Source of the DNA: Thermoplasmatota archaeon
Lineage (GTDB): Archaea > Thermoplasmatota > Thermoplasmata > Thermoplasmatales > Thermoplasmataceae
Length of the DNA stretch: 64,000 nucleotides
NCBI GenBank assembly: GCA_023489435.1
Contig: JAMDCA010000020.1
Location: forward strand, 35,677 to 99,676
Direction of reading: 5' to 3'
Under the pieces are notes generated by a model. It saw only the letters and a list, made by a program, of their open reading frames with translations, ran no database searches and had not been told where the DNA came from. Of this stretch, positions 3,193-63,952 are shown in pieces; positions within the stretch are counted from its first letter, which is position 1, and every line of letters begins with the position of its first letter. Made by a program: the position numbers and the translations under genes.

Positions 3193-3286
3193 GCTTTATG
3201 TATATTAGCCCGTTATTTAATCTTTTAGAGTGCATTAGCAGCACTGTTAAATGTGGATTCCGCAGACAAAAATAATATCTTAGGGT

Positions 3287-4145: not shown

Positions 4146-4760
4146 TCAGGCTTTGACTCTCTTAAGGTACCATCTCTCTGCCCCAGCTTCCTTCTCTCTT
4201 TCAAGTGCACCCTTGAAAGTGTTAGGCGCTGCTGCGATACCATCAGTTCCAGGTTCCCAGTTTGCAGGAGTTGCCAGTTTCTTGTCCCAGTTGAACTGGA
4301 AGGCCTTGATGACTCTGATAATCTCCCTCATGTTTCTTCCAACTTCGGCTGGATAGTAAACCATCCACCTAATGGTCTGGTTTGGGTCTATGAGGAATAC
4401 GCCCCTTACGGTTGTGCCAACCTTTTCATCCATCAGGTTATACTCTCTTGCGACTTCCTTCTCAAGGTCCGCAAGCACAGGGAACGGAACTTCCACCCCG
4501 TACTTCTCCTTGATATCCTTGAGCCAGGCAATGTGGCTGTATATGCTGTCCACACTAAGTCCAATAAGCTCAACGCCCAGTTTCTTGAATTGGTCAAAAC
4601 TCTCAGTAAATGCCATAAACTCTGTTGTGCACACTGGAGTAAAATCTGCAGGATGCGAAAAGAGGAGTACCCACTTTCCCTTGTAATCCGAAAATGTTAT
4701 GGGGCCCTGCGTTGAGTTTATAGTAAAGTCTGGTGCTTTTTGTCCTAGATGTACTGGCAT
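4146..4760 (-). CDS. peroxiredoxin (AhpC/TSA, Prx6-like)
   Basis: FSHPADFTPVCTTEF active site; GVFLIDPNQTIRWMVYYPAEVGRN. Confidence 0.95.
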   Translation of the reverse strand: MPVHLGQKAPDFTINSTQGPITFSDYKGKWVLLFSHPADFTPVCTTEFMAFTESFDQFKKLGVELIGLSVDSIYSHIAWLKDIKEKYGVEVPFPVLADLEKEVAREYNLMDEKVGTTVRGVFLIDPNQTIRWMVYYPAEVGRNMREIIRVIKAFQFNWDKKLATPANWEPGTDGIAAAPNTFKGALEREKEAGAERWYLKRVKA

Positions 4761-4828
4761 TATTTTTTCACCTTATACCTCGATCTGGAATTCCTATATT
4801 AACAGTGAAGATAGGTGCAAATTTAGCT

Positions 4829-5794
4829 TTATTTTCTAGATTTTTCACAAAGGTACTCTGCGAAATAAGTAATGACCATGTCTGCACCAGCCCTGAAAAT
4901 TGAAGTAATGCTCTCTTCAATTGCAGATGGCGCAAGATAGCCATTATCGACGGCCATCTTCAACATGGTGTATTCGCCGCTCACACTGTATGCTGCGATT
5001 GGGGCGTCAAAAGATTCTCTCGCCTTGTTGATGATGTCAAGATATGGCAGGGCAGGCTTTACCATTATTATGTCTGCGCCCTCATTGAGGTCATGTGCAA
5101 TTTCCAGCATGGCTTCCCTGGAATTTCTAGGGTCCATCTGATAAGCCCTTCTGTCGCCAAAGGATGGTGTTGAATCTGCTGCGTTTCTGAATGGCCCGTA
5201 CATTGCAGATGCATACTTTGCACTGTATGCCATAATGGGGACATTCTGGTATCCTGAACCATCAAGTGTTTCCCTGATGAAACCAACCTGGCCATCCATC
5301 ATGCCACTGGGAGCAACCATGTGAACACCTGCTTTTGCATATGAAAGGGCAATCTTTCCGTAGCTTTCCAATGTGGAATCATTGTCAACCTCCTCACCGT
5401 GGAGGACTCCGCAGTGCCCATGTGAGGTATATTCGCACATGCACAGGTCAGCTATCACGATCTGGCTGGTTTCCTTCCTTGCAATTCTGATAGATTCCTG
5501 GACAACACCATTTTCCTGGTGCGCTGAAGTTCCTTTATCATCCTTTCTTCCCGGAATCCCAAACAGCAGGATGCTGCTGACTCCAGCCTCATCCAGCTCT
5601 CCCAGATGCCCGGCTAAAGAATCCGGGGTTTGCCTGGCAATTCCAGGCATTGAGGGAATTGGAACCGGTTTCCTTGCAGTCTCGTCCACAAATACCGGCA
5701 TTATGAGTTTCTTCGTATCAAGAGAGGTTTCGGAAACTAAGTCCCTTATTTTTTCTGAACTGCGCAAACGCCTCGGGCGCGAGACTGGAAACAT
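4829..5794 (-). CDS. hemB: porphobilinogen synthase (delta-aminolevulinic acid dehydratase)
   Basis: RRLR...MPVFVDE, VAPSGMMDGQV, YSAKYASAMYGPFR, MVKPALPYLDII. Confidence 0.95.
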   Translation of the reverse strand: MFPVSRPRRLRSSEKIRDLVSETSLDTKKLIMPVFVDETARKPVPIPSMPGIARQTPDSLAGHLGELDEAGVSSILLFGIPGRKDDKGTSAHQENGVVQESIRIARKETSQIVIADLCMCEYTSHGHCGVLHGEEVDNDSTLESYGKIALSYAKAGVHMVAPSGMMDGQVGFIRETLDGSGYQNVPIMAYSAKYASAMYGPFRNAADSTPSFGDRRAYQMDPRNSREAMLEIAHDLNEGADIIMVKPALPYLDIINKARESFDAPIAAYSVSGEYTMLKMAVDNGYLAPSAIEESITSIFRAGADMVITYFAEYLCEKSRK

Positions 5795-5848
5795 AAAGCA
5801 TAAATTACCTTCCGCAATTAAACTTATTGAGCTTAAGGTTTTGATAGC

Positions 5849-6217
5849 ATGGTTAAGATAACATCCCAGGGGACAATGGTGCTCCCCTTTCAGAGGATTC
5901 AGGAATTATTGAAAACGGTCGATACGGGCAGCAATAAGTTCCACACTGCCAGAAACATCGTAACAGACAATATGGCCAACAAGAACCAGGAGATTGCCAT
6001 TGGTTCCATTGATTTTGAGGTTTCGGGGAACAGGGTCACTGTTACTTGCGACACAACCGGAAAGAGTGTTAAGGAAGCTTTCAAACGCTCATTTGACGTG
6101 GTTTACGAAGTTATGTCAGAACTACTTGAGCTCACATTGAGGGAAAAGGACATTGAAAACGAGGACACTCTGATGGCAATAAGGGACATAACTATTGTAA
6201 GTGTATCAGAGGAATAA
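5849..6217 (+). CDS. hypothetical protein
   Basis: 122-aa ORF divergent from hemB. Confidence 0.6.
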   Translation: MVKITSQGTMVLPFQRIQELLKTVDTGSNKFHTARNIVTDNMANKNQEIAIGSIDFEVSGNRVTVTCDTTGKSVKEAFKRSFDVVYEVMSELLELTLREKDIENEDTLMAIRDITIVSVSEE

Positions 6218-11879: not shown

Positions 11880-12403
11880 TTGTGGGTCCAAAGAAATACC
11901 GCCGAAAGGATTTTGTCATCAGGCTATCCGAAGCAGGTGACTTTAAGGAATCTAGCGAAACCTTTGCCGAAGTGGCAAGGGAGAAATTTATCTTAACGCT
12001 GAGGAACCGTCGCCAGACATACTGGAAGTCTGGAACGAACGCTGGAAAAAATGGCGCAAACACGATGTTTTGCGTTGCCCAATGCGAGAGCAGGTTTGCA
12101 GGTAGCTTTCATACCGATATCATATTCCAGATCGCCAAAAACAGCGCATATCATTAATCTGGGAATGTGGCTGGTCAAGGATCGTGGGGGACAGGGAATG
12201 AATAGTGCACTGATTGATTATGCAATAGGATGAGTCAGGCAGGTCCCCGAAATCAGGGAAATCATCCTAGGGGTATTGAATGTCACTCCAAGGGTGATTG
12301 CTCTTTCCAGAAGGTTCGGTTTTCATATAGAAGGCTGCTACAGGAATATCGTAATGGTTCAGAAAAAACCTGTCGATGAGGTGCTTATGGCCTGTGATTT
12401 ATA
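11880..12403 (+). pseudogene. decayed GNAT-family N-acetyltransferase
   Basis: HIINLGMWLVKDRGGQGMNSALIDYAIG* continues in frame as VRQVPEIREIILGVLNVTPRVIALSRRFGFHIEGCYRNIVMV; upstream part in another frame. Confidence 0.75.
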
Positions 12404-53860: not shown

Positions 53861-55078
53861 TTACGCCTCCATTGGAACTGAACCTCCCCCCGTGTTCCCA
53901 GGTTTCCGCTCCCTGTACGGTTTCGCATTCTTCATGATGCCGTATACATGGAAAAGAAGCCTCTTTCCCACAACTACATAAGCCTCCGTTCTAGATTTCT
54001 TCTTCATGGTCTCCCTGCTGAAGAGTTCGTAAAACTCATGATTCCTGTGCACTACAAGGGATACGGCACTCTCATGAACTGCGTTTGAAAGATGGCTGTT
54101 CCGTGTTCTCGTTATGCCTGTCGCACGTACCTTCCCGCCTGATCCGGACATATCGGGGCACTTTCCTCCGTATGACTGGAGTTTCAGGGCGGAATCGAAC
54201 TGACCGATGTTGCCGATCTCAGAAACAATAACTGCAGCATTCACCGCCCCGATACCCTTCATTTCCCTGAGGTGCCCGATATGCTCATTCCCCTCTGACC
54301 TGAATTCTATCTCCTTCTCCACGCACTTCAGGGCGGAGAGTTCACTTCCTAGCCTCTGCACATTCATCCTCAGCCTGAAGGAATACGTTCCTTCAACATC
54401 AGGAATACCCACAGATTTCATAGCCTGTTCAATGATGTTCTGCGCATCCTCAAGTTTGAAGTGATTCCTTCCGTTCTTCTGCATGAATTTCAGGAGTTTC
54501 TCAGGATCAAGCCCTGAAATATTCTCCGGCGTTGTGTACTTCTCGAGTATGGCCATCCCCGTCTTAGAGTCTATGGACATGATGGAGGGGAACTCCGGAA
54601 AGACCACGTTGAGATCAGCCTGTATGTGATTCGATATCCTTGTTACGTTTCTCAGGATTATCTCCCTCTCCCTGGTCACTTCAGAGAGGGGGGATCTTTC
54701 ATGATCCCTTCTTTCCAGTGAGCTTCGGTCCACAAATGGAGTTGCCGCAAGGACATGCGCATCCTCCGGGTCCGACTTCTCCTTCCCGAGATTCATTATC
54801 TTTCGAAGGTGAACTGTTCTCCTGGCATCGATGAGGTGAATCATCCCAATGAATCCATTCTGTTCCAGGAAATACTTCAGAGTAATGTGATAGTTTCCCG
54901 TCGGATTCATGAATATTCCGGCAATTTCCTTCGAATTGCTCCTCCCTATCGTCCTGATCTTTTCAACGAGGCTCAGGAAACCCTCCTTTGTCACGGATAC
55001 TCTTCCGCGCCAGAGAACATCCCGTTTCTCATCCTGTATCTCTGCATAATGCATCTCCCGGTGTGTGTCTATTCCCAA
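53861..55078 (-). mobile_element. IS110-family transposase
   Basis: N-terminal DEDD-type MGIDTHREMHYAEI; C-terminal MKGIGAVNAAVIVSEIGNIGQFDSALKLQSYGGKCP. Confidence 0.92.
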
Positions 55079-55845
55079 AGATAGAATTTATACCACTTCC
55101 TGCCCATATCTGTGATCAGGGAGCACGGATTCAAGGCGCATACACCTATTACTCCTCCATTGAGGAGAGAGTGCCAATCGGCGAATTGAATCAGGGGAGA
55201 TTCATTTCATAGCCATTGAAGGCAGTCTCACGCGACTCCCCCTCCCTCTATCCGGATTCAGGCGATCCTGAATCATATTTGGATATAGGTTGATCTTGTA
55301 TAGCATTCACTTCATTTAAAGTTGTATAACCATACCAAATCAATCTTAGACAAATCTTTGCTTAATTCCATATTTCTTACTTCTGATTTCGACTGTACCA
55401 GTATGAAGGACAAACTTTCCGGTGTAGTACGTGGGACGAGGATCTTCGCAATCCCCTCCAACAGGAAGAATGAAGGCGCCAAAACAACTTCTGGCAGGGG
55501 ATCTGGAAGTTCAGAGAGGTCATTTCTCGAACTTAATGAATTCATTGTAGGCAAGATCGAGGACTTTGATGGGTAAATGCTCAAGGTCAGGACCCATAAT
55601 TCCCGCCAGCTACTGTTTGCACTGTGCGACATAAAGGATTTATTCATTGAGAAAGAAACAAAGGGGTCACAGTTCTAATTCAGCCTTAGCATTGTAATAT
55701 ACTCTTCCAGATGCGATAGAAAATGGTTTGTTCTATTACTGGCCAACAGACAATGGCTATAAATGTTTAAGTGTGGCTGATGTACTCATTAGAAGCATTA
55801 ATATCCCGGCGTTGAGCAGTTTCATAAAGGTGGCAGGCCTGAGAC

Positions 55846-56028
55846 TTATAGTTGTTTTAGCTTTTCAATGCAAATTTTTCCTTCTTCCATTGTAAAGACT
55901 ACCACATTGTCGTCTTTGGTTAACCCTAGTTTGTCAGCTACTTTCCTCGGCAGGGTTATTCTCAGAGAATTTCCGTCTCTGCTCTTGATATGGGCGACAT
56001 CAATGATCGCCTTCTTTGCCTGTTCCAT
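55846..56028 (-). CDS. AbrB/SpoVT-type DNA-binding protein (just outside the integrated element)
   Basis: IKSRDGNSLRITLPRKVADKLGLTKDDNVVVFTMEEGKICIEK. Confidence 0.85.
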   Translation of the reverse strand: MEQAKKAIIDVAHIKSRDGNSLRITLPRKVADKLGLTKDDNVVVFTMEEGKICIEKLKQL

Positions 56029-56163
56029 TTTTCTTCGATATTTTAACTCATAAATACGCTTTTCGGAATGATTAGTACATAAGAAGCACCGTATTTCAGT
56101 ATAAGCCAGCCTATTTTTTCATAGCCATAATTATTTCAACACTTGGTCTGGAATATAAACTAA

Positions 56164-56181
56164 AATGGGGCTGACCGGGTT
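56164..56181 (+). repeat. attachment-site copy distal to the tRNA (attL-like)
   Basis: AATGGGGCTGACCGGGTT identical to 63874-63891. Confidence 0.88.
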
Positions 56182-56234
56182 TTAACCCTATACGGTTTAA
56201 GCACCATAATTAAATACCTACTTGGGTTCCTTAT

Positions 56235-57629
56235 TTGATAGTCATGCCAAAGAAAGGGGATAACAAATATACAAAATACCTGAAGGACGTGGACTTTAAC
56301 CGCTGGTTAAACAACGTCAAGCGGGGATCTGCCATAACCGGGGATGTGAACCTGCGCCGAATGGGTAAATTTGTGGAATTGACCGGCAAGGAGCCAAAGG
56401 AACTGATAGCCATGAAGCCAAGGGAAATAACTGATTTCCTTGACGATTTTATTACGGACATGGAAAACAGGGGAGCAACCCCAAACTACATTTCATCAAT
56501 ACTTAAGGCTGTTAAATCTTGGCTTGCGCACAATCATATCACGCTAACAAGAAAACTCAAGATCAAGGATGCTGGGAAGCCCATCACTCTGACACGCGGG
56601 GAGAACAAGGAAAGGGTTCCCACGCAGGACGAATTGAAAGCCATATTGAATGCCGGGGACGCGCGAGCGAGAGTTGCCATAGTGCTCATGGCGCATTGTG
56701 GGGTCAGGCCAGAAGTGATAGGGGATTACAAGGGGCAGGATGGTCTCAAAGTCGAGGATTTCCCAGAACTCAAGATCAGGGATAACACCGTGGAATTTGC
56801 AAAGGTTCCAACTCTCATAAACGTCCGGGAAGAGATAAGCAAGACCGGCAATCCATACATAACATTCCTTGGGCAGCAGGGATGCAACTACATCAAGGCA
56901 TACATCCAGGAAAGGATCAATGCGGGAGAAAAGATCAAACCGTCATCCGCTATCATATCTGCATCCAAGAGCGCACTGCGCGATGAAAAACAACACATCA
57001 CGTCCATTAACGTTAGTGACTCCATCAGGCAGCCAATAAGGACAGCAGGCTTTAAGTGGAGACCCTATGTTTTAAGAGGCTATTTCGCCACACACATGAT
57101 GGAAGCGGAAGCAAAGGGCAAGATCATAAGGGACTACAGGACGTTTTGGATGGGTCACACCGGCGGGATAGAAGCCACGTACACCACCAACAAAGTGCTG
57201 CCGGAAAATATGATCGATGATATGAGGAATGCCTATGAAAAAGCCATGGAATTTTTGGAAACCGAACACGAGCCGGGCATAAAGGAAGAGGATATGAAAG
57301 CATTCGTCAACAAGCACATGCTCAAGATTGCCGGGTATTCCGATGAAGAAATAGATGCCATGGACTTGGGAACTATGGCCGATGACGAGGTAGCCAAAAG
57401 GGTTCAGGAAAAATTTGGCAGGAAGGATGAACGGCTGGAACCGGATCAGATTGAGGATAGAGCCAAGAATGACCGGGAAGAGATTGACAAGCGCACCAAT
57501 GGGTCAAGGCAAAAGGTGATCCCGTCTTACATGCTGGAGTTTTACATTAATGAGGGCTTCGAATATGCCGTTAATGTGGGGGAAGATAAGTGCATAGTAA
57601 AATTACCCCCACCTATCCCTTATCATTAA
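56235..57629 (+). CDS. int: tyrosine recombinase / archaeal integrase
   Basis: HCGVRPEVIGDY (box I Arg), RPYVLRGYFATHMM (YxxR), WMGHTGGIEATYTT (box III Tyr). Confidence 0.92.
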   Translation: MIVMPKKGDNKYTKYLKDVDFNRWLNNVKRGSAITGDVNLRRMGKFVELTGKEPKELIAMKPREITDFLDDFITDMENRGATPNYISSILKAVKSWLAHNHITLTRKLKIKDAGKPITLTRGENKERVPTQDELKAILNAGDARARVAIVLMAHCGVRPEVIGDYKGQDGLKVEDFPELKIRDNTVEFAKVPTLINVREEISKTGNPYITFLGQQGCNYIKAYIQERINAGEKIKPSSAIISASKSALRDEKQHITSINVSDSIRQPIRTAGFKWRPYVLRGYFATHMMEAEAKGKIIRDYRTFWMGHTGGIEATYTTNKVLPENMIDDMRNAYEKAMEFLETEHEPGIKEEDMKAFVNKHMLKIAGYSDEEIDAMDLGTMADDEVAKRVQEKFGRKDERLEPDQIEDRAKNDREEIDKRTNGSRQKVIPSYMLEFYINEGFEYAVNVGEDKCIVKLPPPIPYH

Positions 57630-57649
57630 AATTTCCCTGTAAAAAACGC

Positions 57650-58204
57650 TTACAAAATAAGGTTGCCGTTCTTGTCCACTATACCATCTTCAATCAGTTG
57701 TTTTAGTCGTTGTTCCTTCTCATCTTTCCGTGCCGAGCCTTCAGCGTTCAAGCGATCTCCCTCTTCCTGCTGGAATTCTTTGTATCGGAGATATATTGCT
57801 GAAGTGGCATAGCCGTTCAACATGGGAGGGATTATCGTCTTTTCATCCGGGAGAGGAATGGCAATAACCTGACCAAAGTTGTCCTTTAAATCGTCCTCTT
57901 CCCAGTTCTTCCGGTCATACGCATCTAAAACGGTATCCCAGGGTTGCCCCGGATCATACCACCTGAATTTAAAAATAGGCATTACTAAGGGTTCATTGTG
58001 TTCGCTTTTTCCAATCTTTACGTACATCATTTTTTCCAATGTATCCACAAGGCGCCTCACGCTCCGGGTACGCGAATCCGTCAGGACTAATGGGAACTTC
58101 TCCGTCAGAACGTACTGCAGGCTACCTATTGGCAATTGACCATAGAATGACAGGGTTCTCACTGTTTCTTTGAGCATTGTCTGCGGAGGCAATGATTTAG
58201 CCAT
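57650..58204 (-). CDS. putative DNA-binding regulator of the element (winged-helix-like N-terminus)
   Basis: LKETVRTLSFYGQLPIGSLQYVLTEKFPLVLTDSRTRSVRRLVDTLEKMMYVKIG; divergent from the operon at 58271. Confidence 0.5.
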   Translation of the reverse strand: MAKSLPPQTMLKETVRTLSFYGQLPIGSLQYVLTEKFPLVLTDSRTRSVRRLVDTLEKMMYVKIGKSEHNEPLVMPIFKFRWYDPGQPWDTVLDAYDRKNWEEDDLKDNFGQVIAIPLPDEKTIIPPMLNGYATSAIYLRYKEFQQEEGDRLNAEGSARKDEKEQRLKQLIEDGIVDKNGNLIL

Positions 58205-58270: not shown

Positions 58271-58477
58271 ATGTGCATGCGGTCTGATCGGGTTGACCAA
58301 GCCGCGTTATACATCAATCTAAACATGCCAGTATCATGGGATAGAAAATTGATCCGGATAAACTGCTCATATTATGTATGCGTGCCACCGGAAATAGTGA
58401 GAGCAGAAGACTTGCGTGAGGGGACGGTGCTTGTGGTGAAGCCCACTGATAAGGGGATAAACGTGGAGGTGAAGTAA
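58271..58477 (+). CDS. AbrB/SpoVT-like DNA-binding protein
   Basis: SWDRKLIRINCSYYVCVPPEIVRAEDLREGTVLVVKPTDKGINVEVK. Confidence 0.75.
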   Translation: MCMRSDRVDQAALYINLNMPVSWDRKLIRINCSYYVCVPPEIVRAEDLREGTVLVVKPTDKGINVEVK

Positions 58478-58630
58478 TTGCCTTCCATATCCCAGTTCAA
58501 ACAAGATATGATCAGGCGATACCCTGAAAGCACTCTTGCCAAGACCCTTCAAGCTGAACCTGACCAGATGAGCGATCAGGAGTTTTTATTGAAGATGCCT
58601 ACGTGGCTCAAGCTGGCGGGTGGTAAGTAA
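58478..58630 (+). CDS. small hypothetical protein (TTG start; not in ORF track)
   Basis: LPSISQFKQDMIRRYPESTLAKTLQAEPDQMSDQEFLLKMPTWLKLAGGK; abuts 58477, overlaps 58630 ATG (TAATG). Confidence 0.6.
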   Translation: MPSISQFKQDMIRRYPESTLAKTLQAEPDQMSDQEFLLKMPTWLKLAGGK

Positions 58631-59013
58631 TGTACGCACTTTCCGGAAATGGCGAGTTTTACCTAAAAGACCCCGGTGAAGTTGCAATCATCCACAGGAA
58701 ATGCGGGGAAGAAGCCGATTATAAGATCGTACATGACCACTTCAGCCACATGATCTGTAAGGTCTCCTGCTACAATTGCTATAAGGGTCAAGTGGGAACC
58801 ATGCTCCAAATTATAGATATCTTGAGCGCCAGTGAGGAGAGATTAATGATGGGTGACGAAGACTACGTGCCTGAAATAGTGGAACGTTTAGAGAATGGCT
58901 CCATCACGCAAGAGCAATTTGATAAATTGACCGTATGGATCAAGGCCGTGCCTATTGACGAAGTCCAAAAAAGAATGGACGTTGGCGAGTATTTTGCCAT
59001 AAAGGACTGGTGA
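58630..59013 (+). CDS. hypothetical protein with Cys/His pairs
   Basis: 127-aa ORF HRKCGEEADYKIVHDHFSHMICKVSCYNCYKG; operon position. Confidence 0.65.
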   Translation: MYALSGNGEFYLKDPGEVAIIHRKCGEEADYKIVHDHFSHMICKVSCYNCYKGQVGTMLQIIDILSASEERLMMGDEDYVPEIVERLENGSITQEQFDKLTVWIKAVPIDEVQKRMDVGEYFAIKDW

Positions 59014-59297
59014 AAACAATGTATAAAGAAGAGGGGAAGAGAAATGAGTATAGGCAAGATAACAAGCCTGCACCCATATTTAAGGATTCAGTTCTCCGGT
59101 ACAAGACCACAACGGGCTCCCTTGATGTATTTTCCTCCCATCTGATTGGGAAAAGCCTTGTTTTAACTCTCATCAACGGCAGAACTGAATCGGGCATCTT
59201 GACCCAGTTTGGTCAGTATGACCTTGCAATCAAGACAGCACAAGGTAGGGAATTGATCATCATGAAAAGCGCAATCATAACGGTGGGGGTGCTTTGA
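59010..59297 (+). CDS. Hfq/Sm-like (LSm-fold) protein
   Basis: LIGKSLVLTLINGRTESGILTQFGQYDLAIKTAQGRELIIMKSAIITV matches Sm1 (NG..xxG.L..F) and Hfq-type Sm2 (KHA/KSA-I-x-x-V); GTGA start/stop overlap. Confidence 0.7.
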   Translation: MKTMYKEEGKRNEYRQDNKPAPIFKDSVLRYKTTTGSLDVFSSHLIGKSLVLTLINGRTESGILTQFGQYDLAIKTAQGRELIIMKSAIITVGVL

Positions 59298-59298
59298 A

Positions 59299-60651
59299 AT
59301 GGAGGAACCCCAGCCATCTTTAGATCTGCTCAAGGATTTTAGCCTTCAGATACGAAAAGTCACTCATGCCCCTATGAACGCCTGCAACGCGGCTGCGCAA
59401 CTCCTGATAGCTTCTGCAATGCCACATTGTGTATTCAAGAACGAAATAGGTGATATTCAAACCAACCTCTCATTCCTATGGATCGCTCCTTCTTCAACAT
59501 ATAAAACCCCGCTGAGAGACCTCCTTAAGGATATTTATTTTGAACTCTTTAAGGGAGCCGGATACCGTTTAAAGAGTAAATTCACCACGGAGGGCATTAT
59601 GAACTCGTTATCCCAATTTAAGAAACAACACGAGGATAAGGGTGAAAATTTGCCGTACTGGGCTCTGATTCTCAGGGATGAAGTATCTAATCTCGCAAAG
59701 GAAAGCAAATCCGGGAGATCGTCAAACATCTGGGAATTCCTGTCTGAAGCCTTTGATGGGTATATATCTCCGTATGACACCGTGAGAGGTGGCACCCAAG
59801 AATACCCTGATACGCTCTTTAACATCTGGATGTCCGGAACTGCCGTTTTCTATGAACATCTTAGGGACGACTTCTGGGATCAAGGATTCGCGTTTAGAAC
59901 CTTATTCATTAAGCCTGAGAAAAACCCGTATCTAAAACCTGAAAGCACCTTCAAAAGACAGTACGCCATTGAAAACATCTGCCAGGAACTGAAGGGGCTA
60001 TTAGAAATCAAGAGAGCGATAGCTACCATTGAATGGAATACCGAATATCAGGAATATGTTAAAGAGATCAGGGATAAACTTGAGATAGAGGCTGATCTTT
60101 TTGACACACCCAATCGCTTGCCAATAGACATAGCCGCAATCAAGAAATATCCTGAACTTGTAGTAAAGCTCTCTATGGTTCGATGTGCATCCCGACAAGG
60201 CTGGGAAGTGAAGGATGGGATCAAGCACTTGCTCCTAACAGATGATGACCTTCACGCAGCTATGCTCGATCTTGGGGAATACCAGAATAACTGTATAGCT
60301 GCCTATAACACATACCAAGTGAAGAAAGAGGCACCAATGAAGGTAGAACGCAATATACAGGAGCGCAAGAACATACTAAACGCCATAAGGAATATAGAAA
60401 CAAGATACGAATTGCAGACGGAAATGGATGAAAAAACAGAGGAATTCGTTATAACCAGTGTAAATGTTTCGGATAAAGGGGAGTGGGTCAGGAAGTCGGA
60501 TGTTATGCGCAAGACTGGCTACAGCAAACGTACCATGGACGGGCTGATCGAAACCATGGAAGATGCACTTGAGATCGAAGCAAAACAAGTCGAAGTATCA
60601 TTTAGTAGAAGACCGATATTGATGATTCGGGAGAGGCGAAGCAAAGATTAG
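59299..60651 (+). CDS. putative replication ATPase/helicase-like protein (DUF3987-like) with degenerate P-loop and C-terminal HTH
   Basis: FLWIAPSSTYKTPLRDLL, WALILRDEVSNLAKE, NIWMSGTAVF; C-terminal GEWVRKSDVMRKTGYSKRTMDGLIETME. Confidence 0.5.
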   Translation: MEEPQPSLDLLKDFSLQIRKVTHAPMNACNAAAQLLIASAMPHCVFKNEIGDIQTNLSFLWIAPSSTYKTPLRDLLKDIYFELFKGAGYRLKSKFTTEGIMNSLSQFKKQHEDKGENLPYWALILRDEVSNLAKESKSGRSSNIWEFLSEAFDGYISPYDTVRGGTQEYPDTLFNIWMSGTAVFYEHLRDDFWDQGFAFRTLFIKPEKNPYLKPESTFKRQYAIENICQELKGLLEIKRAIATIEWNTEYQEYVKEIRDKLEIEADLFDTPNRLPIDIAAIKKYPELVVKLSMVRCASRQGWEVKDGIKHLLLTDDDLHAAMLDLGEYQNNCIAAYNTYQVKKEAPMKVERNIQERKNILNAIRNIETRYELQTEMDEKTEEFVITSVNVSDKGEWVRKSDVMRKTGYSKRTMDGLIETMEDALEIEAKQVEVSFSRRPILMIRERRSKD

Positions 60652-60652
60652 G

Positions 60653-61020
60653 ACTTGAATTATTTGCCCAATTAGAATTTCACCTGTTGAGCAATTTTAT
60701 TCTAACACATAAATCAAAATATGGTTCTTGAATTGTTCAAGGGTGAAGAACCGTAGCATTTTCCAGCGTCTTGCATATACTAATAACCATAATTCAATAA
60801 ATCAATAATTCAAGTAAAAACAGTTCTGGGCATTTGGCATGATACGATGTGGCTGCCAGAACCAATTTGGGAAAACCACTTGAATTATTGTAATTATTAA
60901 CCCAATTAGTATATTGCTCTATCCGCAATGCATCATCTTTTCTTGAATTATGACTTGAATCATTGTAATTATGTGCTTACCCAGTAATATTAGGCATGAA
61001 CTGGACTTGAATTTTGTCAA
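60653..61020. repeat. iteron-like repeats, consensus ACTTGAATYATTGTAATTAT (direct and inverted)
   Basis: copies at 60653, 60727, 60807 (inverted), 60878-60898, 60942, 60953-60972, 61005. Confidence 0.7.
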
Positions 61021-61111
61021 AGCCCGTTAAATAGCCAGTGTTTACCAGTAATAGAAGAATTGGTAATTTTACATAGTAAAATTAAAGTTTTTAACATCTT
61101 GCCGCCAATCC

Positions 61112-61279
61112 ATGCCCGTTTTACCCCGCCTCAATGGTTCAGTCAGCAAGAACATGAAGATTCAGCCACCCAGTGTTTTGGTTTGGGATGCCATAGATGA
61201 TATGTGGTATGATCCCGTTATGGACGTGAAATACTCACCTGCTGATATGGGAATAGATGAGGATATCCTTGATTCTTGA
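61112..61279 (+). CDS. small acidic hypothetical protein (55 aa; not in ORF track)
   Basis: MPVLPRLNGSVSKNMKIQPPSVLVWDAIDDMWYDPVMDVKYSPADMGIDEDILDS. Confidence 0.4.
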   Translation: MPVLPRLNGSVSKNMKIQPPSVLVWDAIDDMWYDPVMDVKYSPADMGIDEDILDS

Positions 61280-61285
61280 ATAGTA

Positions 61286-61320
61286 GTACATAATGCACCA
61301 TTGTTTGGTGCAAGATGTAC
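61286..61320. other. two-part hairpin GTACA-GCACCA...TGGTGC-TGTAC
   Basis: outer 5-bp and inner 6-bp stems separated by symmetric 4-nt internal loop. Confidence 0.55.
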
Positions 61321-61618
61321 ACATTTCGTCCCCCCGTTTCATATAATTTTAGTTTTTATATGCCAAATATAGGTTGCCCGTCATCTTGCATCCCGGCATG
61401 CTATTAAACAGCCTGCGGGTATCTATAGCCTAAATACAGGGGTTTTTGCATATCTTGTAGGGATACGGCATATTGTTGGTTTTGGTAAATATAGCCAAGT
61501 GATCCCTATTCTATAACCTAAATTGTGCAGCATTAATATTCTTGATTTCTGCAGCAAATAGAAAAATGGCTTTTGCCGGAATAAGCCTTATATATAACCT
61601 GTAAGTCCTATAATTACA

Positions 61619-62428
61619 ATGGACCAAACACCACCGACCCCTGCAGAACCCGTTTATCCGGATATGCCTCCAGACATGACCTATCAGAGGGCTCTTGTCT
61701 GGAAATCCCACAAGCTTGATGAGGTCTGGATCGAACTCCAAGAACTCAAGCAAAAATACGCTATCCGGGTGGCGCCTGATGCTCCGCTGGAACTTTTGAC
61801 TTCCCCGGAAAACCTAAAGATATACGAGTGGGTTAAACGTTTGCCCATTAGCGATAGGTCTCTCAACATGCTGGGGTATGCCATTGATCATAACAAAATT
61901 GACTATCTTTTCATGACGGATATGGGTGATCCGGGTTCGCCGTTCTATTTGGAACTTGCCAATAAATGGCGGGACGGGCATTATAAAATAATGACGACGG
62001 AGACTCAGGAGAAATATTTTGACTGGTTGGACAAACTTGAAAAAAAGGCAGCGGAACTCAAGGGAATGGAGAAGAAAGTTGAAGCCCTTAAGCCTGAACT
62101 CAAAACCCTGACCGAGCAGCGAGACGCGCTAAAGATCGAATGTGATGCAATAAAAGCCAACGCAAAGGCTGAAATTGATAAGGACAAAGAATTCCTGAAC
62201 CGCCAGAAGGAGGGAGTTAAGAATACATTCCGGAATCTATTGGGGGGCTTCTTAATCGGCGAGAGGGTACGCATTGAGTTCATGAACAGGGACTACAACC
62301 TTGAGACGATAGAATGTGAAGTTTTGGCTCTTGAAGGGGATCAGCTAACGGTCTCCGTTGGTTCCAGCAAGAAGGCGATCAATGTCGACCATATTTTTTC
62401 AATAGGTAAGGGTGGGAACCTTGAGTGA
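61619..62428 (+). CDS. coiled-coil protein with C-terminal Sm-like/beta-barrel domain
   Basis: coiled coil DKLEKKAAELKGMEKKVEALKPELKTLTEQRDALKIE; tail LIGERVRIEFMNRDYNLETIECEVLALEGDQLTVSVGSSKKAINVDHIFSI. Confidence 0.6.
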   Translation: MDQTPPTPAEPVYPDMPPDMTYQRALVWKSHKLDEVWIELQELKQKYAIRVAPDAPLELLTSPENLKIYEWVKRLPISDRSLNMLGYAIDHNKIDYLFMTDMGDPGSPFYLELANKWRDGHYKIMTTETQEKYFDWLDKLEKKAAELKGMEKKVEALKPELKTLTEQRDALKIECDAIKANAKAEIDKDKEFLNRQKEGVKNTFRNLLGGFLIGERVRIEFMNRDYNLETIECEVLALEGDQLTVSVGSSKKAINVDHIFSIGKGGNLE

Positions 62429-62597
62429 TATCATCGGCTCAATGGTCGAACTGACCTTCTGGGAGGGCTTCTCCCGCTTAACAATGGCGGGGAAAGTGAT
62501 CTCCACGGACGATTGGTATATCAACTTGGAAACTGGAATGGGTGTCAAAAGATCGGTTTTAATCAGTGCCATCGCGGAAATTAAGAGGGTGAATTGA
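62412..62597 (+). CDS. 61-aa minimal Sm-like protein
   Basis: IIGSMVELTFWEGFSRLTMAGKVISTDDWYINLETGMGVKRSVLISAIAEIKRV; overlaps upstream gene. Confidence 0.6.
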   Translation: MGTLSDIIGSMVELTFWEGFSRLTMAGKVISTDDWYINLETGMGVKRSVLISAIAEIKRVN

Positions 62598-62885
62598 ATG
62601 GCCATTTTGAAGCCGGGACGTTTTGGGGTAACAATCTTAAGCCTGACGGGTCTGTTGATCCTTATAGATAAAGCGTTCAAATCATCCAGCTTTTTGACGC
62701 TGGTTAGCCCCGGAACTGGGGCATTCTTGAATGCGTTTGTACTCATAAGCCCGTTGTTCATAGGGATCGGGTTTACGTTGCTCCTCGGCTTTTTTACGCT
62801 TCGGAATTACATGTTCGCCTTAGTATCCTTTGCCATCTTTACGGCCATCGGTTTCCTGGTCATCCTGCCTCTGGAGTTGGGATAA
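62598..62885 (+). CDS. small membrane protein (about 3 TM)
   Basis: three hydrophobic stretches; abuts neighbours. Confidence 0.65.
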   Translation: MAILKPGRFGVTILSLTGLLILIDKAFKSSSFLTLVSPGTGAFLNAFVLISPLFIGIGFTLLLGFFTLRNYMFALVSFAIFTAIGFLVILPLELG

Positions 62886-63073
62886 TGCCAAAGATAACCT
62901 GTAAATTGTGCGGGAAGAAGATGAGAAAAACTTACGTAAAATCATCTGTGGGCACGCTGAAATATTTGGGTCGCTATTGCCAGAAATGCAACAGGCTGGT
63001 ACTTGGAAAAGATGATGCAACCCAAAAGAGGCAAAAGACCGTAATCACACCGGAAGGAGGTGGTAGCCTGTGA
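62885..63073 (+). CDS. zinc-ribbon protein
   Basis: ITCKLCGKKMRK...YLGRYCQKCNRLVLGK (two CxxC). Confidence 0.7.
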   Translation: MPKITCKLCGKKMRKTYVKSSVGTLKYLGRYCQKCNRLVLGKDDATQKRQKTVITPEGGGSL

Positions 63074-63174
63074 AAATTACAACGCTGATCGCTGTTATAA
63101 TAGCCGTTTTATACATTGGCTGGCAGTTATGGTACTACGCCAAGAACACCGAGAACAATAAGGAGTTGCCGTAA
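63070..63174 (+). CDS. single-TM micropeptide (34 aa, GTG start; not in ORF track)
   Basis: MKITTLIAVIIAVLYIGWQLWYYAKNTENNKELP; GTGA overlap with upstream stop. Confidence 0.6.
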   Translation: MKITTLIAVIIAVLYIGWQLWYYAKNTENNKELP

Positions 63175-63606
63175 ATGTGCAAGGAGGAGGTTTTTATAAA
63201 TCCGGAATACCAGCGAACAAAGGATGGAGATCTCTTGGTAAAAGTAAGTGGGAATTATCGGGAGTACGGGCACGAAGAAACTTACCGGCTAACCAAAGCA
63301 AACAGGACATTTCTGAATTTGACGCTTGCCCATAAAAATATAAAAAAGGGCAACAAAACAGAACTGGGAATCATTTTAGAAGATGCGCTTAAATGGTTTG
63401 CCGACACGCTCTTGGATTATGAGGAAACTAAACCGGAGTATGGGTTAAGGAAAACCGTCCATTTTAAAAGTACGGATGAACAAACGATATATCGCCGTGA
63501 TTTGCTGAACCGGCACAATATTATAAATATCATCTTGACCCTCTATGCGCGGGAGCACCCAGTGGAAACATCAATGCAAGAACAAGAAGCCAACTCACTA
63601 CCATAG
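63175..63606 (+). CDS. hypothetical protein of the element
   Basis: 143-aa ORF directly after the micropeptide stop. Confidence 0.6.
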   Translation: MCKEEVFINPEYQRTKDGDLLVKVSGNYREYGHEETYRLTKANRTFLNLTLAHKNIKKGNKTELGIILEDALKWFADTLLDYEETKPEYGLRKTVHFKSTDEQTIYRRDLLNRHNIINIILTLYAREHPVETSMQEQEANSLP

Positions 63607-63667
63607 GTTAGATGCTGGAGCGTTTTTAACAGGGAAATTTGATCGTATCTCTATGGGCTGGGCATAT

Positions 63668-63722
63668 TTTACCCGGTTAGGTTTTCCATGTTTGTTTACC
63701 CGGCAAGGTTTATTCATGTTTG
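63668..63722 (+). repeat. imperfect tandem repeat (about 27 bp x2) near the tRNA-proximal element end
   Basis: TTTACCCGGTTAGGTTTTCCATGTTTG / TTTACCCGGCAAGGTTTATTCATGTTTG. Confidence 0.75.
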
Positions 63723-63873: not shown

Positions 63874-63891
63874 AATGGGGCTGACCGGGTT
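63874..63891 (+). repeat. attachment-site copy overlapping tRNA-Met 3' end (attR-like)
   Basis: AATGGGGCTGACCGGGTT identical to 56164-56181. Confidence 0.88.
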
Positions 63892-63949
63892 CGAACCGAT
63901 GACCACCTGGTTATGAGCCAGGCGCTCTACCTAGCTGAGCTACAGCCCC
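63876..63949 (-). tRNA. tRNA-Met-type (anticodon CAT)
   Basis: acceptor GGGGCTG/CAGCCCC; anticodon arm CCTGG-CTCATAA-CCAGG; could also be tRNA-Ile2 if C34 is modified. Confidence 0.93.
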
Positions 63950-63952
63950 ATA

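Follow-up and report, generated by a model that had tools for sequence, protein, structure and literature searches.

Small plasmids of Thermococcales and Methanococcales, such as the pTN2-like and pEXT9a-like replicons, carry a gene for an Hfq-like protein of the Methanocaldococcus jannaschii type next to that of their replication helicase, together with genes for regulators and coiled-coil proteins (PMC3543421). When such genes were noted beside the replication genes of thermococcal plasmids in 2013, it was remarked that the part they play in mobile elements of archaea may have been underestimated (PMC3543421). The locus described here resembles these plasmids as a small archaeal replicon with an Hfq-like gene beside a replication gene, with predicted regulators and with a coiled-coil protein. 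However, in the pTN2/pEXT9a-like plasmids the Hfq-like gene is situated downstream of the helicase gene and mostly encodes an N-terminal C2H2 finger (PMC3543421), whereas the corresponding 95-aa protein of our locus (Hfq95) lacks the finger and is encoded upstream of a DUF3987-type ATPase. Since, in addition, the replication protein gave no tblastn match in plasmids, the element does not belong to this group. Moreover, it adds a second Sm-like protein, which is encoded in an operon with membrane proteins. A further likeness exists to archaeal elements and genomic islands that integrate at tRNA genes, such as the islands of acid-mine archaea, with which the element shares a tyrosine integrase, a tRNA att site and direct repeats; in the passages found by keyword in a survey of these islands, an operon of this kind for coiled-coil, Sm-like and transmembrane (TM) proteins is not described (PMC12302457). 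With its 7.7 kb, the element offers a small, concrete and testable system to ask why archaeal mobile elements bring their own RNA chaperones.

An integrative element in tRNA-Met

The window, i.e. the whole stretch of 64,000 nt that was analyzed, contains an integrative, plasmid-like element in the tRNA-Met gene of a Thermoplasmata archaeon. The 3' end of this gene is repeated as a 24-bp att sequence at the left end of the element, and the related genome G080 (locus L191) from the same genus provides the empty site: the left flank of the window (55323-56187) aligns straight into tRNA-Met and tRNA-Asn. Because the G080 flank runs directly into the two tRNA genes, the insertion in the window amounts to 7,710 bp. 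Tyrosine integrase, att direct repeat and empty site together identify a tRNA-integrated mobile element, and the initial annotation was right to place the operon discussed below in an integrated element. Outside this operon the following features were found:

56164..56187 (no strand): attL, 24-bp copy of the tRNA-Met 3' end, 22/24 bases identical; end of the element fixed by the unoccupied site of G080
56235..57629 (+): tyrosine recombinase (integrase), 464 aa; Pfam Phage_integrase E 1.6e-8, PHROG integrase E 5e-15
57629..57650 (-): copy of a 22-nt repeat, 3' UTR of the 184-aa minus-strand gene
57650..58204 (-): 184-aa protein, predicted regulator, without family match
58271..58477 (+): AbrB/MazE-like protein, 68 aa; E 0.011, below the Pfam cut-off
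58478..58630 (+): 50-aa protein; genes for 50-57 aa at the equivalent position in L049, L164 and L165
58630..59013 (+): 127-aa orphan
59010..59297 (+): Hfq-like Sm protein, 95 aa (Hfq95), adjoining the replication gene; Pfam Hfq E 0.007, below cut-off
59299..60651 (+): 450-aa P-loop ATPase of the DUF3987 type and putative replication protein; E 4e-4, below cut-off
60654..60964 (no strand): iterons CTTGAATTATT in both orientations; six of the seven window copies (at most 1 mismatch) lie here
63874..63897 (no strand): attR, 24-bp repeat inside the tRNA-Met 3' end
63875..63950 (-): tRNA-Met (CAT), integration target

The 184-aa protein is probably a regulator, judged from the position and orientation that its gene shares with genes for 156-208 aa in the related elements L077 and L078. 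The profile of the Hfq95 family matches the solved M. jannaschii Hfq-like structures (MJ1435; PDB 5dy9 and 2qtx) with E 1.8e-5, which places the 95-aa protein among the Hfq-like proteins of this type, and matches to the Hfq-like profile occur in 32 of the 117 genomes of the order, spread over many genera. Homologues of the ATPase were found in 8/117 genomes; the KT and DE motifs are invariant in nine homologues. The approximately 1 kb between the ATPase gene and the operon (60650-61600) has little coding capacity, including one 55-aa reading frame, and the iteron region within it is a candidate replication origin. A partition ATPase or a tubulin-like protein was not seen in the element. In the window, only the tRNAs exceeded the Rfam threshold, and a DNA search within the order turned up no CRISPR spacer that clearly matches the element. 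Some 1.1 kb beyond attL, outside the element, lies a gene for an IS110-family transposase (53861-55078, minus strand). In the closest ATPase relatives, a gene for an amino-acid-permease-like protein with many TM segments follows directly 3' of the ATPase gene (L052 1-1521, minus strand; L049 5721-5876, plus strand), and such a gene also occurs near the coiled-coil gene in L088 (5687-6751, minus strand).

The operon at the right end

The initial annotation had described an operon starting at 62412. Its five reading frames are all present and tightly packed up to 63606, but the true start is at 61619, where a 269-aa coiled-coil protein is encoded as the first gene. The operon thus comprises six genes (61619-63606), among which the five take positions 2-6, and occupies the right end of the element:

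61587..61597 (+): TATA box CTTATATATAA, roughly 27 nt 5' of the ATG of the 269-aa gene
61619..62428 (+): 269-aa coiled-coil protein
62412..62597 (+): Sm-like protein, 61 aa (Sm61), or 58 aa from TTG 62421; predicted Sm fold
62598..62885 (+): 3-TM protein, 95 aa; three TM segments by hydropathy
62885..63073 (+): predicted two-CxxC zinc protein, 62 aa; CKLC and CQKC, without family match above cut-off
63070..63174 (+): single-TM peptide, 34 aa; one TM segment by hydropathy
63175..63606 (+): 143-aa soluble orphan
63619..63640 (+): 22-nt repeat AGCGTTTTTAACAGGGAAATTT, 3' UTR of the operon

From the 269-aa gene on, successive genes are separated by -17, 0, -1, -4 and 0 nt. Each internal start is preceded, at a distance of 4-9 nt, by a Shine-Dalgarno-like (SD) match of at least 4 nt (GGTG/AGGT, GGTGA, GGAG, GGAGGTG and GGAG), a length reached by about 25% of random positions, while 0.2% reach the 7 nt of the best one, GGAGGTG, which precedes the 34-aa TM reading frame. 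The 269-aa gene itself has no SD, and its TATA-to-ATG layout corresponds to the leaderless type of archaeal transcripts; a TATA box at about -26 to -30 is also found before the coiled-coil genes of L077, L080, L083, L084 and L089. The codon-usage score of the small reading frames could not be separated from background, hence their assignment as genes rests on SDs, packing and the homologous arrangement. The tight distances and internal SDs suggest that the genes are co-transcribed, as had been proposed from the five downstream genes; we infer a single transcript that starts from the leaderless-type promoter in front of the coiled-coil gene, and translation is probably coupled via the overlaps and internal SDs.

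The coiled-coil protein comprises a helical N-terminal domain with a DP-x-x-P-x-YLE motif, which is followed by a coiled coil of approximately 85 residues. Its predicted model, which extends to residue 211, shows the helical domain and a long helix (127-211), and a fold search with this model gave no match. That the C-terminal part forms a small beta barrel is a guess; a direct homology test of the C-terminus against the Sm-like proteins revealed no significant similarity (best shuffle p 0.11).

The assignment of the 61-aa protein as Sm-like is backed by structure prediction. Its model consists of an N-terminal helix and five strands (pLDDT 94), and the best Foldseek matches are mostly Hfq proteins with TM-scores of about 0.7-0.8 and probability 1.0, with a best E of just 1.4e-3. 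By this predicted five-strand barrel the protein would belong to the Sm/Lsm/Hfq superfamily. Its sequence similarity to Hfq95 is modest (shuffle p 0.003), and, while the Hfq95 family is a profile relative of MJ1435, Sm61 is related to the Sm group only at the level of the fold. Translation may start at TTG 62421, which has the better SD spacing, instead of GTG 62412. The TM segments and cysteine pairs of the 95-aa, 34-aa and 62-aa proteins are as initially annotated. The proteins of 143 and 34 aa are without counterpart. The former weakly matches a reading frame of 1,102 aa in L047/L048, the large subunit of DNA polymerase II (PolD), but this match was judged spurious.

Coiled-coil genes in related elements

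Relatives of the coiled-coil protein were found in 11 genomes. With the window protein excluded from its making, the family profile places the 269-aa protein first among the 323 reading frames of the window (E 1.2e-4, next 0.3), which makes it a probable, distant member of the family. The family motif VYxYLKxNP ... CDPxNPLYLExV, which precedes the coiled coil, is partly altered in the window version (KIYEWVKRLP ... GDPGSPFYLELA). Homology is likely, as the DP-x-x-P-x-YLE motif lies outside the coiled coil, although the latter contributes part of the score. Outside the order, the class-wide profile search yielded just coiled-coil noise.

The complete relatives L077 and L078 share the layout of the window element, with the order integrase, opposite-strand gene, Hfq-like gene, large replication gene, coiled-coil gene, small gene and tRNA. 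Their att cores measure 16 and 18 bp, respectively, compared with 13 bp at tRNA-Asp in L056. The replication gene has been swapped between elements, and the coiled-coil gene is kept with differing replication genes. Related elements from other genera also terminate at tRNA genes with operons of small genes that include the coiled-coil gene; the genes that follow the latter vary between copies, as does the gene order. In L089 (contig 8 of genome G116) these encode a 68-aa C2H2-like zinc protein, a 131-aa TM protein and a 64-aa Sm-like protein, joined by 4-nt overlaps and followed by tRNA-Glu; the 64-aa protein matches the C-terminal SH3/Sm-type domain of RimP with E 2.5e-4, below cut-off. Products of 103 aa, 72 aa (C2H2-like) and 76 aa (2-TM) are encoded in L082, a 68-aa two-cysteine protein and a 75-aa 2-TM protein before tRNA-Met, the same target as in the window, in L086, and a 76-aa 2-TM protein, an 88-aa Cys/His protein, a 65-aa protein and a 98-aa TM protein before tRNA-Asp in L056. 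In G097, a decayed and frameshifted sequence of the Sm64 type lies directly 3' of the coiled-coil gene, and L077, L078 and L084 are coiled-coil elements with no Sm-like or TM gene nearby.

The recurring set hence consists of a membrane protein, a zinc protein and the coiled-coil protein, joined by an Sm-like protein in at least two intact copies. The combination of Sm-like and membrane proteins, which the initial annotation had singled out as unusual, is probably not chance cargo and points to a functional link, because the independent element L089 again combines coiled-coil, zinc, TM and Sm-like proteins. In both of these independent copies the Sm-like gene is firmly tied to genes for membrane proteins within one operon, and in some elements there are two or three Sm-like genes. 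Elements of a second type (L160, L161) have other Sm-like proteins beside the Hfq-like gene; L161, which comes from the same genus, apparently contains three Sm-like genes within 1.4 kb (4592-4801, 5087-5359 and 5789-6001, the first judged by eye). In G044, a 1,143-aa repeat-containing and probably surface-anchored protein is encoded directly downstream of the coiled-coil gene (L079 3950-7381, minus strand).

Possible roles of the operon

Our main reading, to which we assign a probability of roughly 0.4, is that the products of the terminal six-gene operon act as one complex in the maintenance of the 7.7-kb element. The coiled-coil protein would provide the scaffold and the small TM proteins the membrane anchor, while an Sm-like ring together with the zinc protein would bind RNA or DNA; the earlier proposal of an RNA-binding complex anchored at the membrane is plausible as a hypothesis. 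In the least certain step, the complex would tether replicating element DNA or transcripts at the membrane and thereby help to control copy number or to segregate the element, together with the Hfq-like protein whose gene adjoins that of the replication ATPase. Judging from L077, L078 and L084, such a complex is not obligatory for these elements.

Maintenance is weakly preferred because the coiled-coil gene is kept with different replication genes and because the searches detected neither virion nor transfer or defence families. Some archaeal virions typically contain small hydrophobic proteins, and the operon forms its own transcription unit away from the replication genes, hence the TM and coiled-coil proteins might build or release a membrane-enveloped particle and the element might be a provirus. 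This virion or egress function, which had also been proposed initially, is nevertheless quite improbable: searches in Pfam, PHROGs, NCBIfam and PADLOC gave no structural, packaging or secretion family, among them no packaging ATPase or spike, and nothing recognizable as capsid, spike or packaging protein of spindle-shaped or pleolipo-like archaeal viruses was found. No relatives of the ATPase, coiled-coil and Hfq-like families were found among 2.9 million viral contigs (IMG/VR), nor were relatives found in the phage and plasmid collections. Furthermore, the only P-loop ATPase of the element, which is of the DUF3987 type, sits in the replication cassette, and the TM genes vary strongly in number and sequence among the relatives. 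A VirB4/HerA-type ATPase as expected for conjugative transfer was not found, the similarity of the 3-TM protein to TrbL (E 0.019) is below cut-off, and the replication protein, the integrase and a coiled-coil protein of the family gave no sequence match in plasmid records.

Small TM effectors are also common in abortive systems, and accessory genes collect at the terminal position beside an att site; in other copies such as L077, DNA methylase or restriction-like genes are found nearby. The operon could therefore represent membrane-active defence, exclusion or toxin-antitoxin cargo, in which the Sm-like and zinc proteins would sense invading nucleic acid, with the TM proteins as effectors that protect element or host. 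We regard this as unlikely, since PADLOC returned no credible match to known defence systems (best E 0.002-0.005, on the coiled coil or cysteine pairs) and since the coiled-coil gene, unlike rotating cargo, stays with elements of different replication genes. Rather doubtful, too, is a loose collection, in which the coiled-coil gene would be a core gene of the element and the small downstream genes unrelated passengers sharing its promoter. The changing content after the coiled-coil gene would fit (one small gene in L077; TM, zinc, 65-aa and TM proteins in L056; five genes in the window), as would the lack of counterparts for the 143-aa and 34-aa proteins. However, the overlaps are tight, and the Sm-like, zinc and TM classes recur with the coiled coil in L089, and without a proven Sm-like protein in L082, L086 and L056. 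For a role in maintenance, the thermococcal plasmids provide a further argument, being a precedent for Hfq-like proteins tied to replication (PMC3543421).

A further peculiarity is the 22-nt repeat. Its two copies are placed in the same sense in the 3' UTRs of the operon and of the 184-aa minus-strand gene, where shuffled sequences predict 0, and they flank the integrase/att block; in the window they are U-rich. L077 has another sequence of 15 nt at both corresponding places (3197-3211 and 11956-11970), which L078 shares at one. The repeats may act as terminators or bind proteins, or they may have been left behind by recombination around the integrase/att block; given the U-richness of the window copies, a function as terminator or as target of an Sm protein is possible. 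In a more far-reaching reading, which we consider improbable as a whole, the element would represent an undescribed family of integrative plasmids of Thermoplasmata, in which the Sm ring, the zinc protein and the coiled-coil scaffold assemble on small membrane proteins into a ribonucleoprotein tethered to the membrane, which would govern replication, segregation or spread of the element, perhaps via the shared 3'-UTR targets (AGCGUUUUUNACAGGGAAAUUU) on two mRNAs. Between the operon and attR, a 27-bp tandem repeat is present in two copies (63668-63722; TTTACCCGGCAAGGTTTATCCATGTTTG).
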